Positions 2 through 7,278 of a stretch of DNA of 32,884 nucleotides are shown here, one piece after another. The stretch comes from an uncultured Pelagibacteraceae bacterium (GTDB lineage Bacteria > Pseudomonadota > Alphaproteobacteria > Pelagibacterales > Pelagibacteraceae): the NCBI GenBank assembly GCA_902561465.1, contig CACEPH010000008.1, positions 1-32,884 of the forward strand, read 5' to 3'. Every line of letters begins with the position of its first letter. The first letter of the stretch is position 1. Under the pieces are notes generated by a model that worked only from the letters and a program-made list of their open reading frames with translations, made no database searches and had not been told where the DNA came from. The position numbers and the translations under genes are program-made.

Positions 2-370
2 AAAAAAATTAGACTTTTCGGAATTGATGCTCCAGAAAAAAAACAAATCTGTCAAAAGATATATATGAGTTTTCTTATATTTAATTTTCAAAAGAAGTAC
101 AAATGTGGTGAAAAATCAACTTCAGAATTAGCAAAAAAATTAAAGAATAAAAAAATCAAATGCATTCTTGAGAAAAAAAAAGATAAATATAAAAGAAATA
201 TTGGAACTTGCTATCTTAAAAATCAAGATATTAATAAATGGCTCGTAAGAAGTGGTTATGCAATAGCATATAAAAGATATTCAAAAAAATATATATTAGA
301 TGAACAATATGCCAAAGAAAGTAAATTAGGAATATGGGCAAGTCGGAAGCTAAACACGCAGGACAATTAA
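2..370 (+). CDS. thermonuclease-like (SNase) protein, 5' end outside window, 3' end broken
   Basis: The open frame continues to the window edge upstream of the ATG at 65, and codons 2-64 read KKIRLFGIDAPEKKQICQK, the typical first strand of the staphylococcal nuclease fold. The rest of the fold follows: the KCGEKSTSELAKKL helix, DKYKRNIG (equivalent of DxYxR with the catalytic Arg), WLVRSGYAIAY and the C-terminal helix ending in GIWAS. SNase family proteins cleave DNA/RNA and are often exported, but any signal peptide would lie outside the window. After GIWAS (codons to about 343) the frame reads only eight unrelated residues, RKLNTQDN, and stops. Those bases belong to the phosphoglycerate mutase frame that begins there, so the usual SNase ending (GIWxxxF..P..WR) is missing. 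The fold is almost whole and could still work. The ATG at 65 is internal and is not the start. Confidence 0.75.
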   Translation, partial: KKIRLFGIDAPEKKQICQKIYMSFLIFNFQKKYKCGEKSTSELAKKLKNKKIKCILEKKKDKYKRNIGTCYLKNQDINKWLVRSGYAIAYKRYSKKYILDEQYAKESKLGIWASRKLNTQDN

Positions 371-939
371 TTAAAGAACTTAATATTAAATTCGATGCAT
401 ATTTTACTTCAGAGTTAAAAAGAGCAGTAAATAGCTTAGACATAATCTTGAAAGTTTTGAACGAAAAAAATGCTCAGATTAATAAAACCACTAAATTAAA
501 TGAAAGAAATTATGGCAACCTCACTTCTCTAAATAAAGATGAAATTATAAAAAAATATGGCAATGAACAGGTAAAAATTTGGAGAAGATCATATAATATT
601 CGTCCACCTGCCATGGATACAAAACACCCATATAAAAATAAAATTGATTTAAATAGTTCTAGTGAATCTTTGAAAGATACTTATGAACGTGTATTGCCAT
701 ACTATAAAGAAAAAATAGAACCACTTATTTCACTAAAAAAGAACGTTTTAATTGTATTTCATGGAAATAGTTGTAGAGCATTATTAATGAAACTTTTTAA
801 TATTTCTGAAAATAAAATTATTGAATTTGAAGTGCCAACAGGAAATCCATTGTTAATCAATTTTGATCAGAACTTAAAGGTGAATGATTTTAAATATCTT
901 GATAAAAAAAGAGCTAAAAAGATACTATTTAATGTTTAA
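334..939 (+). pseudogene. gpmA: 2,3-bisphosphoglycerate-dependent phosphoglycerate mutase, N-terminus lost
   Basis: The frame matches GpmA from SEAKHAGQLIKEL onward: LNERNYGNL (LNERHYGxL), the block YGNEQVKIWRRSY, and FHGNSCRALLM, which carries the second active-site histidine. It ends with PTGNPLLINFDQNLK. GpmA interconverts 3- and 2-phosphoglycerate. Intact enzymes are about 230-250 residues and begin with RHGxSxWN, holding the phosphorylated histidine, about 30 residues before the SEAK helix. Here only 'MGK' precedes SEAK, and in-frame upstream DNA belongs to the SNase-like gene in another frame. The enzyme therefore lacks its nucleophile and should be inactive as read. The ATG at 334 is probably fortuitous, being part of the SNase GIW codons. 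The 3' end overlaps the convergent nucleotidyltransferase stop by 15 bases. A chimeric assembly is the alternative to a real deletion. Confidence 0.85.
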
Positions 940-1614
940 ATTTTTATAAACATCTAAATTACTTACATGCAAAAAATTGATATTGCTCTCCATGCCAAAT
1001 AATTCTTTTTTTTTAATTAATTCTTCCCAAATTTTATTCATTGAAAAAACTCTCTCATTTACATTTGAAAAAATCTTAGGTTTCATAATTTGTAGACCCG
1101 TGTAGATATATTGTAAATCTTTTTTATTTTCTTTGTTAATTAAATTATTTTTCAAATTAAAATCTCCCTTCAAGTTTTGATCAAAACTTTTAACCTTGTT
1201 TACAACAAGGATAGAGCAGTTTTTATCACCTAAAAAAAAATCGTTTTCCATTTTCTTAAACTCCTTTACATAATTTAAGCTCCAAATGGTATCAGGGTTT
1301 ATGCACAAAAAACTTTCATTAAAATATTTAAGTGCATTTAGTATACCTCCTCCGGTATCTAATATTTTTTCTTTTTCGTTAACTATAGTGATAGTTAAAT
1401 TAAATTTTTCATTATTAACATAATCTATAATTTGTTCTGAAAGATGGTGAACATTAATTACAACGCTATTTATGCCTGCGGCCTCAAGAAATTTTAATGT
1501 TTTAAATAATAATGTTTCGCCTCCTATTTTTAATAATGGTTTAGGACATTTAAGAGTTAATGGATGAACTCGCTTACCATAACCGGCTGCAAGGATCATT
1601 GCTTTTTTAATCAT
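925..1614 (-). CDS. nucleotidyltransferase, MurU-like (sugar-1-phosphate nucleotide transferase)
   Basis: A 229-residue NTP_transferase family protein. The N-terminus AMILAAGYGKRVHPLT is the GxGxR nucleotide-binding signature, followed by KPLLKIGGETLL, the HHLSEQI segment, LDTGGGILNA, and NPDTIW with the metal-binding aspartate near residue 108. The short single-domain length, without a left-handed beta-helix, fits MurU (N-acetylmuramate-1-phosphate uridylyltransferase of cell-wall recycling) or mannose-1-phosphate guanylyltransferase-like enzymes. Substrate cannot be decided from sequence alone, and no amgK partner lies in the window. The gene starts 14 bases after lpdA and runs in the same direction, so it is probably read from the same transcript as the 2-oxoglutarate dehydrogenase genes. 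Its stop overlaps the convergent gpmA remnant by 15 bases. Confidence 0.8.
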   Translation of the reverse strand: MIKKAMILAAGYGKRVHPLTLKCPKPLLKIGGETLLFKTLKFLEAAGINSVVINVHHLSEQIIDYVNNEKFNLTITIVNEKEKILDTGGGILNALKYFNESFLCINPDTIWSLNYVKEFKKMENDFFLGDKNCSILVVNKVKSFDQNLKGDFNLKNNLINKENKKDLQYIYTGLQIMKPKIFSNVNERVFSMNKIWEELIKKKELFGMESNINFLHVSNLDVYKNLNIK

Positions 1615-1628
1615 GCTTCTTGTAGATA

Positions 1629-3032
1629 TTAGAAATGAATTGGCCTTTTATCAACCGCCATAGCTGCTTCTTTTACTGCCTCACTATGTGTAGGGTGAGC
1701 ATGACAAGTCCTTGCTATATCTTCAGCGCTCGCACCAAATTCCATTGCAAGAGCTAGTTCAGCAATCATTGTTCCTGCTAGAGAACTTATTATTGAAACC
1801 CCCAGCACTTTATCAGTTTTTTCCTCAGCTATTATTTTAACAAATCCTTCAGTATCTGAATTAACTTTTGCCCTAGAATTAGCTAAAAATGGAAATTTTC
1901 CAACTTTATATTTTATTTTTTCTTTTTTAAGTTGCTCTTCAGTTTTACCAACGGTTGCCACTTCAGGTGAAGTATAAACAACAGCAGGAATAACATTGTA
2001 ATTTACATGTCCTGCCTGTCCAGCAATTATTTCTGCAACTGCTATGCCTTCGTCCTCGGCCTTATGGGCTAACATTGGTCCTTTATCTATAACATCGCCA
2101 ATGGCATAAATATTTTTAATTGATGTCTCCAGTTTCTGGTTAACTGTAATTTTTTTATTATTTTGTTTTATGCCTAATTTAACTATATCGTCACCTAAAT
2201 TAGGTTTTCTGCCTACCGCAACCAAAACTTTATCACACTCTATTCTTTCTCTTTTCGCTGTCTCATTACTTGTAAAATCTACAATCGCTTTGTTTTTTAC
2301 TATCCTTACTCCTGTAACTTTCGAATTTAATTTAAAATTAATACCCTGCTTAGTGAGAATTTTTAAAAATTCACTTGAAATATCTTTATCCATACCTGGG
2401 ATTATATGATCTAAAAATTCAATTACTGTAACGTTTGAACCTAATCTTTTCCAAACACTTGAAAGTTCTAGACCAATATACCCGCCTCCTATAACAATTA
2501 ACTCTTTAGGGACCTTTTCAAAAGATAATGCTCCTGTTGATGAAACTATAATTTTTTCATCTATTTTAACTCCTGGCAAAGATGTCGGAATTGAACCCGT
2601 TCCTATTACAATATTTTTAGCTTTATAATTATTTTTTTTTCCAGAGCTATCAGTAACTTTTACTGTATTTTTATCTAATATATAGCCTTTACCTTTTAAA
2701 TGAGTAATTTTGTTTTTTTTAAATAAAAATTCTACTCCTTTTGTTAGCGTTAATATTGATTTTTTTTTATTATTCATCATTTTTGAAAGATTTAGTTTTA
2801 CGTTGCTAACTTCAATGCCTAAGTTATTAAATTCTTTTTGAATTTTGTGGTACATTTCGGAAGAATTGAGGAGGCTTTTTGATGGTATGCAGCCAACATT
2901 TAAACAAGTTCCACCTAAAGTTTCGCCTACTTCCACGCAAGCTGTTTTGAGACCCAGTTGTGCTGATCTTATTGCACAAACATATCCTCCGGGACCAGCT
3001 CCAATTACGACAACATCGAAATCATTATTCAT
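1629..3032 (-). CDS. lpdA: dihydrolipoyl dehydrogenase (E3)
   Basis: A 467-residue flavoprotein, the family's usual length. It reoxidises dihydrolipoamide on the E2 subunit and passes electrons to NAD+ in the 2-oxoglutarate dehydrogenase complex. Visible landmarks are the FAD-binding VVVIGAGPGGYV (residues 7-18), the redox disulfide in GGTCLNVGCIPSK (Cys43 and Cys48), the NAD-binding VIGGGYIGLELSSVWKRLG, the second FAD site NIYAIGDV, and the C-terminal HAHPTHSEA with the catalytic His446/Glu451 pair. It lies 2 bases downstream of sucB, so it is the dedicated E3 of this complex, although it may also serve pyruvate dehydrogenase and glycine cleavage if no other copy exists. No odd features. Confidence 0.97.
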   Translation of the reverse strand: MNNDFDVVVIGAGPGGYVCAIRSAQLGLKTACVEVGETLGGTCLNVGCIPSKSLLNSSEMYHKIQKEFNNLGIEVSNVKLNLSKMMNNKKKSILTLTKGVEFLFKKNKITHLKGKGYILDKNTVKVTDSSGKKNNYKAKNIVIGTGSIPTSLPGVKIDEKIIVSSTGALSFEKVPKELIVIGGGYIGLELSSVWKRLGSNVTVIEFLDHIIPGMDKDISSEFLKILTKQGINFKLNSKVTGVRIVKNKAIVDFTSNETAKRERIECDKVLVAVGRKPNLGDDIVKLGIKQNNKKITVNQKLETSIKNIYAIGDVIDKGPMLAHKAEDEGIAVAEIIAGQAGHVNYNVIPAVVYTSPEVATVGKTEEQLKKEKIKYKVGKFPFLANSRAKVNSDTEGFVKIIAEEKTDKVLGVSIISSLAGTMIAELALAMEFGASAEDIARTCHAHPTHSEAVKEAAMAVDKRPIHF

Positions 3033-3034
3033 TA

Positions 3035-4384
3035 TTAAAGATCTAAAAATAGTCTACGTGGTTCTTCAAGACACTCTTTAATTGTTTTTAAAAAAGAAAC
3101 AGCTTCCTTGCCATCAATTATTCTATGGTCATATGACAAAGCCAAATACATTATAGGTCTTATAACAACACTGTTTTCCTTTACTACAGGTCTTTCTATA
3201 ATGTTATGCATACCCAAAATACCTGTTTGAGGCGGATTTAATATCGGTGTAGAAAGCATTGAACCATAAATTCCTCCATTGCTAATAGTAAAGGTTCCAC
3301 CTTGAAGATCATTAATTGTAATTTTACCTTTTTGTGCCTTTTCTGATAATAAAAATATATTTCTTTCTATATCAGCAAAAGATAACTCGTCTGCTTTTTT
3401 TAATACAGGGACTACCAGTCCTCTATTTGTTCCTATAGCAATAGAAATATTATAATAATTCTTATAAATAATAGAATCTCCTTCTATTTCTGCATTTACA
3501 GATGGAAAATTTTTTAAAGCTACAACTGAAGCTTTAACAAAAAATGACATAAATCCTAATTTAACTGAATATTTTTTTTGAAAATCTTCTTGATAGTCTT
3601 GTCTCATTTGCACAATACTTTGCATATCAACTTCGTTAAATGTGGTTAGCATTGCAGCACTATCTTGTGCTTGTTTTAATCTTTTTGCGATAGTTAACCT
3701 TAATCTTGTCATTTTGACACGCTCCTCAGGTCCGTGGGTGATTTTTCTTTTTGATTCTTGAGGAGTGTTGCCCATTAAATTAATTAAATCACCTTTTAAA
3801 ATTCTTCCTTCTTTTCCAGTACCTTTAATTTTTGATATATCAATATCATTTTCTTCAACAATTTTTCTTACTGAAGGAGCTAAATGTTTTTTAGCTTTGG
3901 GAGGTACATATTTTTTTTCCTCAGTCTCGATAATTTCTTCCTCTGCCAAAGTATCTAAAACTAATGCTCCATTAGAGTTTTCATCAATAACTTCTTCCTT
4001 TAATGGTAAAGCTTCTTCTTTTTTGGAAATTATTTTTCTTTCTTTCTTTTGTTCTTGAACAATAACTTTTTTAATAGCTTTTTTTGGTGGTGCGTATGAT
4101 TGTTGTTTTTTTTCCTCTGTCTTTGTTTCTTTAATTGAGTCAGATTTTTCTGAACTTACAAGGCCCAACAAAGTTCCAACTCCGACTGTATCTCCTTCTT
4201 TTACTTTAATTGAAGATAAAGTTCCGCTTAATGGTGAAGGAACTTCAACATTTACTTTGTCTGTTTCAAGTTCTACCAAAGGTTCGTCGGTATCCACTTC
4301 TTCGCCAACCTGCTTTAGCCATTTTGATACGGTAGCCTCTGTTACCGATTCTCCTAAAGATGGTACTAAAATTTGATTCGACAT
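3035..4384 (-). CDS. sucB: dihydrolipoyllysine succinyltransferase, E2 of 2-oxoglutarate dehydrogenase
   Basis: E2 core of the 2-oxoglutarate dehydrogenase complex; it moves the succinyl group from E1 to CoA through a swinging lipoyl arm. Domains in order: lipoyl domain (residues 1-75) with the modified Lys43 in ETDKVNVE; a long Lys/Glu-rich linker (about 80-165); the E3/E1-binding peripheral domain ([12 protein letters not shown] through GRILKGDL, about 168-204); and the catalytic domain ending in [12 protein letters not shown] with His420 and Asp424 of the HxxxDG motif. At 449 residues it is somewhat longer than common SucB proteins (around 400-430), the excess being in the linker. It starts 2 bases after the sucA stop and is followed 2 bases later by lpdA, which strongly suggests translational coupling. 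Confidence 0.97.
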
Positions 4385-4386
4385 TC

Positions 4387-7278
4387 CTAGATAAGTACCT
4401 TTTCTACTATTTGCTTTTGTTGGTCAATATGCCTTTTTATATACCCTGTAGCTGGTGAAGCAGCTGGTTTTCTTCCAATATACCTCACTTCTTTGTTTTC
4501 AGCATCTATATAATTTAGTGCCCATTCAATATAATTACGGGCAGAATTCCATGCACCCATATTTTGAGGCTCTTCTTGACACCAATAGAACTTTGCATTC
4601 TTTCTAAATCTTTTTAATTCTGTTGCTAAAGTTTTTACAGGAAAAGGATATAATTGTTCTATTCTAACAAAATACACTTTGTCATTTTTTATTTTTTCTC
4701 TAGCTTCTAAAAGATCAAAATAAATTTTACCCGAGCATAATATTACTTTTTTTATTTTTTTATCCTCTCTAATACTAATAAGACCATAGTCTTTTATTCC
4801 GGCATGATCTGGTAGAATTCTATGGAAAAAATTTTTTTTCGTAAAATCTTCTATATTAGATACACATCTTTTATTTCTTAATAGAGATTTTGGAGTCATT
4901 ATAATTAAAGGTTTACGGAACTCTCTGTGCATCTGTCTTCTCAATGCATGAAAATAATTTGCTGGCGTCGTACAATTAATAACCTGAATATTTTCTTGAG
5001 CACATAACTGTAAAAATCTTTCTAATCTTGCTGATGAGTGTTCTGGACCTTGACCCTCATAACCATGTGGAAGCAGCATTACCAAACCGCTGGCTCTAGC
5101 CCATTTTCTTTCGCCAGATGCAACAAATTGGTCAATTATTACTTGTGCTCCGTTCGCAAAATCTCCAAATTGAGCTTCCCATACGACTAGTGATGTAGGC
5201 TCTGATAGGGCATAACCATGTTCAAAACCAAGCACTGCAAACTCTGAAAGTAAACTATCAATGACCTCAAAACGTTTCTGCTTTTGTGAAATATTATTTA
5301 GTGGAGTGTAATACTTGTTATTATTTTGGTCTCTTAAAACAGAATGTCTTTGCGAAAAAGTTCCTCTTCCAGAATCTTGTCCTGAAAGCCTAACAGGATA
5401 TCCCTCATCTAAAAGAGTAGCAAAAGCTAACTGTTCCGCTGTTGCCCAATCAAAACCTTTTCCACTTTGGAACATTTTTTTTTTATTTTGAAAAATTTTT
5501 TTTATAGTTGAATGAGCCTCAAAATCCTTTGGAATATAAGTTATTTTTTCTCCAATCTTTTTTATTTTATCTAATGAAACTCCTGTAACACCTCTTTTAT
5601 CCTTACCTCTTTCAGGTTTAAATCTGCTCCATACACCTTCGTACCACTCAAGTTTTGGTTTATAACTTTTTGCAGTTTTAAATTGTTCATCAAGAAGATT
5701 TTTAAATTCTGTTTTCATTTTATTAAATTCCTCTTTTGTAATAGTTTCTTCTTTGATGAGTTTATTTCCGTAAACATTTACAGTTGTAGGATGTTGTTTT
5801 ATTTTTTTATACATTAATGGCTGCGTGAAAGAAGGTTCATCTCCTTCATTGTGTCCAAATCTACGGTAACAAATCATATCTATGACGACGTCTTTATTAA
5901 ATTTTTGTCTAAACTCAATTGCTATTTTTGCACAATGCACGACTGATTCAGGATCGTCTCCATTACAATGAAGTATTGGAGCTTCAACTACCTTTCCTAA
6001 ATCTGAAGGGTAAGGACTTGATCTTGCAAATCTTGGATTTGTTGTAAAACCTATCTGATTATTTACTATTATATGAATAGTTCCCCCAGTATTATGCCCA
6101 GGAAGTCCTGACATTGCAAAACATTCTGCGACAACTCCTTGTCCCGCAAAAGCTGCATCTCCATGCAATAAAACAGGAATTACTTTGTTTCTATTTTTAT
6201 CTTTATGAAAAAATTGTTTGGCTCGAACCTGCCCTAATACTACAGGATTAACAGCTTCAAGATGTGAAGGATTATCAGTTAAGCTTATATGTACTAAATT
6301 GCCATCAAATTCTCTATTTGATGAAGCTCCTAAATGATATTTAACATCTCCTGTGGAATCAGCAGGTGTACTGTTAAATTCACCGGCAAATTCATTAAAT
6401 ATTCTTTTATAGGATTTTTGAAGCAAGTTAGCTAATACATTCAATCTACCTCTGTGAGGCATGCCAATTTTTACTTCCTTAACTCCTAATTGCCCACCAC
6501 GCTTAATGATTTGTTCAAGCGCGGGTATTAAAGACTCAGCCCCATCTAAACCAAACCTTTTAGTACCAACAAATTTGACTGCTAAATATTTTTCAAAACC
6601 TTCAGCTTGTATTAATTTATTTAAAATGGCTTTCTTTCCATTGTTGGTAAATTTTAATTGATTTTCTTCTTTTTCCATTCTTTCTCTAAACCATACTTTT
6701 TCAATTGGATCAGCAATATGCATATATTCCACGCCAATAGTTGAACAATAAGTTTTTTTAAGAAAAGAAAGTATTTCATTAACTGTTGCGTAACTACGAT
6801 TCATATAAGAGTGAATATAAATTTTTTTATTATAATCTTCTTTTTTAAATCCATGGTCTGCAGGATGCAATTCGTGTAAATATTTTCTTTCCATCATGCC
6901 TAATGGATCTAAGTTTGCTATTAAATGTCCTCTAATTCTATATGCTCGAATTAAAGCAATAGCTTTTACTGACTGACTCTTTTGTATTTCAAAGTTTTCT
7001 TGAGAAGTTGATTCTCCATTCGTTGGTTGCTGTTTATTTTTTTCTATAAAATTTTGTTTTGGTATATTATTTTTTTTACGTCCCCAAGTTGGTCCAAGTA
7101 TTTCTTTTTTTACAATTTCTTTGTCTTCACCAAGTCCATCAAAAAATTCAACCCAGCTTTGAGGAATTGCTGAAGGATTTTTGAGATATTGTAAGTAAAT
7201 CTCATCAACAAAAGAACTGTTAATTCCATGTAAAAAAGAAGTTTGTTCTAAAATCGTATTAAATTTTTTAGAGGTCAT
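4387..7278 (-). CDS. sucA: 2-oxoglutarate dehydrogenase E1 component
   Basis: A 963-residue thiamine-diphosphate enzyme that decarboxylates 2-oxoglutarate and succinylates the E2 lipoyl group. The N-terminus ([19 protein letters not shown], then SWVEFFDGL) is the E2-binding segment typical of OGDH E1. Further landmarks are [43 protein letters not shown] near the ThDP site, the metal/ThDP stretch [21 protein letters not shown], and the transketolase-like C-terminal half ([33 protein letters not shown]). Length agrees with proteobacterial SucA (about 930-990). It follows sucD after a 42-base gap and precedes sucB by 2 bases. Confidence 0.98.

Follow-up and report, generated by a model that had tools for sequence, protein, structure and literature searches.

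We asked whether the junction between a truncated nuclease gene and a truncated gpmA gene, found at the tip of a SAR11 contig, arose in the chromosome of the cell or in the preparation of its sequence. The original prediction had named two possible causes, a single deletion and an assembly join, and had added that the cell, if the junction were real, had either lost this glycolytic mutase or used another, which would matter for SAR11 carbon metabolism. The window analysed here is an entire contig of 32,884 bp, of which base 1 is a contig end, from a Pelagibacteraceae assembly of 45 contigs that is 63.15% complete with 0.09% contamination; its placement in SAR11 was right. From these statistics and from its relatives, we infer that the assembly is a single amplified genome. 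All three relatives that could be named (AG-464-G19, AG-464-B15 and AG-439-E07) carry names of the single-cell style.

Two truncated genes meet at the contig tip

The open frame at 2-370 belongs to the SNase family (PF00565, profile match with E=2e-19). It is family-like as far as KESKLGIWAS and then reads RKLNTQDN before its stop codon. The other end of the protein is cut as well, about 45 N-terminal residues being lost at base 1, where the contig ends. The part that is available is 81% identical to the nuclease of a relative, G002, across residues 46-156 and, at the DNA level, window positions 4-337 correspond with 85% identity to the minus strand of locus L044 of that genome, from 3816 to 3483. 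The tip of the contig (1-343, read on the plus strand) thus comes from the interior of an SNase-family nuclease gene and is inverted with respect to its match in G002.

The GpmA-like open frame that follows (334-939) matches TIGR01258 with E=7e-60, the match starting at profile position 31. As called, it encodes 201 amino acids and is opened by an ATG at 334; this codon is located in nuclease-derived DNA and is a spurious chance start. The part that belongs to gpmA (341-939, plus strand) is a gene without its first 33 codons, and its frame begins with SEAKHAGQ at the codon 343-345. By comparison with the nearest relative, G012, 33 residues are missing, where the original prediction had put the loss at roughly 35-40, and among them is the RHG motif with its nucleophilic histidine. 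This motif is absent from the contig and present, behind an intact start, in G012 and in the other relatives translated in the matching frame. The remaining frame is undecayed, with 96% protein identity to G012.

The junction itself lies at 338-343, the nuclease homology stopping at 337 (against G002) and the gpmA homology starting at 341 (against G012). The two sides have no repeat in common and share only about three bases, probably an overlap of 3 nt (AGT, 341-343). The first description of the junction, an SNase-like frame ending family-like at GIWAS and a GpmA-like frame from about 343, was therefore accurate; what it missed is that the nuclease is also cut N-terminally and that the nuclease piece is inverted relative to its native position. 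None of the 22 other genomes of the genus gave an alignment covering both sides of the junction in the arrangement of the window. We also looked for the nuclease in viral contigs and for gpmA in phage records and found nothing, so that no evidence points to a phage origin.

Native gene order in the relatives

In the relatives, the order is RND pump, SLT (minus), DUF1476 (minus), VanZ (minus), gpmA (plus) and nucleotidyltransferase (minus); in two genomes an SNase gene (minus) is found in addition. DUF1476, the ATPase inhibitor subunit zeta, lies between SLT or the nuclease and VanZ. Among the relatives compared, only G002 (L044, 3435-3950) and G023 (L045, 4578-5045) have the nuclease between SLT and DUF1476, and G023, which belongs to another genus of the family, repeats the order of G002 with one small gene more between VanZ and gpmA. 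The other relatives fetched with the region have SLT, DUF1476 and VanZ on the minus strand and gpmA on the plus strand, without the nuclease; VanZ was undetected in G003. Several other relatives carry a nuclease of about 50% identity elsewhere in the genome, and the placement of the gene is patchy.

From 341 to 5933 the window runs collinear with G012 (93% DNA identity). To the left of this the similarity breaks off abruptly, and G012 continues with the intact start of gpmA, followed by a VanZ-like gene on the opposite strand. On the right, gpmA is followed by a nucleotidyltransferase gene (925-1614, minus strand), its native neighbour in all relatives whose contigs extend there, and the contig is therefore native rightward of the junction. 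In AG-464-B15 (G009; L046, 5373-6058), the nucleotidyltransferase gene beside gpmA is broken into two frames that overlap, which suggests an assembly frameshift.

The comparison with G002 brings the two parts of the junction together. Window positions 343-2000 match the plus strand of L044 at 4739-6400 (76%), in the same 3-kb stretch that holds the minus-strand match of the nuclease piece. Since one stretch is matched in inverted and then in direct orientation, the first 340 bases or so of the window are inverted nearby DNA. In G002, the nuclease and gpmA point in opposite directions with DUF1476 and VanZ in between, and about 1.25 kb separates the two points that are joined in the window.

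Origin of the junction

The native order decides against a deletion. Each gene does lack the end that is turned towards the other in the contig, as expected if a single deletion had fused two neighbours. However, G002 and G023 carry them on opposite strands of one locus with two or more genes between, and from such a divergent arrangement a deletion cannot produce two genes head to tail on one strand; an inversion-type event is needed. A deletion would require a plus-strand nuclease upstream of gpmA, found in none of the relatives examined. Under the G002/G023 order this half of the original prediction is ruled out, and we give it practically no weight. Its other half, an artefact of some kind, is supported. 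A plain assembler misjoin, of unamplified origin and involving no chimeric molecule, would agree with the position of the junction at a contig end. Nevertheless, assemblers misjoin at repeats and the two sides have none in common, and an inverted join over so short a range is specific to multiple displacement amplification (MDA) (PMC1855051), which makes a misjoin very unlikely.

A real inversion of some 1.25 kb, reaching from the nuclease 3' end to the 5' end of gpmA, would have split both genes and inactivated the sole phosphoglycerate mutase of this SAR11 cell or strain. If its breakpoints lay at L044 3483 and 4739, it would yield exactly the right-hand junction that we observed, and its left-hand junction would fall past the contig end. 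A search of the assembled 63% of the genome did not turn up the reciprocal junction. Moreover, the remainder of the nuclease gene and the DUF1476, VanZ, SLT and RND genes have no copy elsewhere in the assembly. The native left side of gpmA is thus unassembled, an intact gpmA is as a consequence not visible in this cell, and the assembly by itself cannot choose between an inversion and an artefact. The choice comes from other evidence: the inversion would abolish the only known mutase, yet the rest of the gpmA frame is undecayed, the junction recurs in no other genome of the genus and it happens to lie within 343 bases of a contig end. A chromosomal inversion is, in our judgement, highly improbable.

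We therefore favour, with a probability of about 0.92, an artefact of single-cell whole-genome amplification by phi29 MDA that was extended into the contig tip. Chimeric joins are known in single-cell assemblies (PMC10523443). Of the 475 MDA chimeras that Lasken and Stockwell (2007) sequenced from a single E. coli cell, 406 were inverted; 337 of these 406 joined segments less than 10 kb apart, and 93.5% of the inverted chimeras within this distance had complementary bases at the junction (PMC1855051). The inverted join over less than 10 kb with a short overlap is thus the commonest phi29 MDA chimera (337/475; PMC1855051). We took as marks of such a chimera that the second segment is inverted, that no more than 10 kb separates the joined points and that the junction has a complementarity of 2-21 nt. 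Here the second segment is inverted (4-337 on the minus strand and 343-2000 on the plus strand of the same G002 stretch) and the span is about 1.25 kb in the G002 order; these features, together with the contig tip and the probable 3-nt overlap, make an amplification artefact the most likely explanation. From them we infer the following course. A nascent strand, copied by phi29 polymerase leftward through gpmA, would be displaced near base 341. The freed 3' end would re-anneal to single-stranded DNA some 1.25 kb away, where the nuclease gene has its own 3' end, and synthesis would then proceed in the opposite direction. The assembler would have added about 340 bases of the chimeric product to the contig and stopped. 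The loss of the RHG motif is attributed to this chimera, and the junction, though present in the contig, is almost certainly not biological.

Phosphoglycerate mutase in the Pelagibacterales

The proposed loss or replacement of the mutase finds no support across the order. Of the 40 Pelagibacterales genomes searched, 37 have gpmA, and none of the 14 with a completeness of 90% or more lacks it. Of the two alternative mutases that the original prediction had named, GpmI and GpmB, the cofactor-independent GpmI (PF06415) was detected in none of the 40, the same search being positive in 6 of 14 control genomes, E. coli and B. subtilis among them. A real loss of gpmA would therefore take out the only known mutase. 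A search of the literature on SAR11 phosphoglycerate mutase returned nothing useful. We expect that gpmA is intact in the living cell, and the junction is without consequence for SAR11 carbon metabolism.

Other contig ends

Forty-two contig tips of the assembly were compared with the relatives. Nine are native to the end, the present one is inverted and the rest are uninformative except for the right end of contig C5; given the nine native tips, chimeric ends are not general in this assembly, which counts against an amplification artefact. At the right end of C5 (L118, 615-2484), the last 600 bases match a site 45 kb from the match of the preceding 1.26 kb in G014, on the same strand. This is possibly a second chimeric tip, or ordinary gene movement, and a genus-wide search did not settle the matter.

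Contigs also end inside gpmA in G004 (C47), G010 (C28) and G022 (C3), and no more than about 200 bases before its start in G012 (C21) and G006 (C45). Breaks in or beside gpmA are somewhat more frequent in these single-cell-style assemblies than a rough chance estimate of 2-3, and the gpmA region may be a weak spot of coverage. In AG-439-E07 (NODE_3; L057, 4908-5370), the reading frame of gpmA shifts near residue 60, where the sequence is rich in A and T (AAAAAAGAGCTTTTAAAAG), and the contig terminates within the gene; this is either a sequencing or amplification error or a second damaged gpmA.

Comparison with known systems

The tip of a single-cell contig can imitate a broken essential gene, with a spurious start codon and open reading frame. 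Before gene loss is claimed near such an end, a comparison with relatives should show whether an inverted short-range join is present. The 198 or so remaining residues fit the 2,3-bisphosphoglycerate-dependent phosphoglycerate mutase family (TIGR01258) and the native downstream neighbours are in place; the gene differs from this family in that nuclease DNA has taken the place of its first 33 codons, which include the catalytic RHG motif. The nuclease piece resembles the PF00565 nuclease of G002 across the available part, whereas it is only an internal piece, inverted, with its C-terminus lost at the junction and its N-terminus at the contig end. The junction as a whole is like the inverted phi29 chimeras of Lasken and Stockwell (2007; PMC1855051) in its inversion, its span of less than 10 kb, its probable short overlap and the single-cell style of the data. 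It differs from them in that those chimeras were found in reads and this one is in the contig tip of an assembly whose amplification history is presumed.
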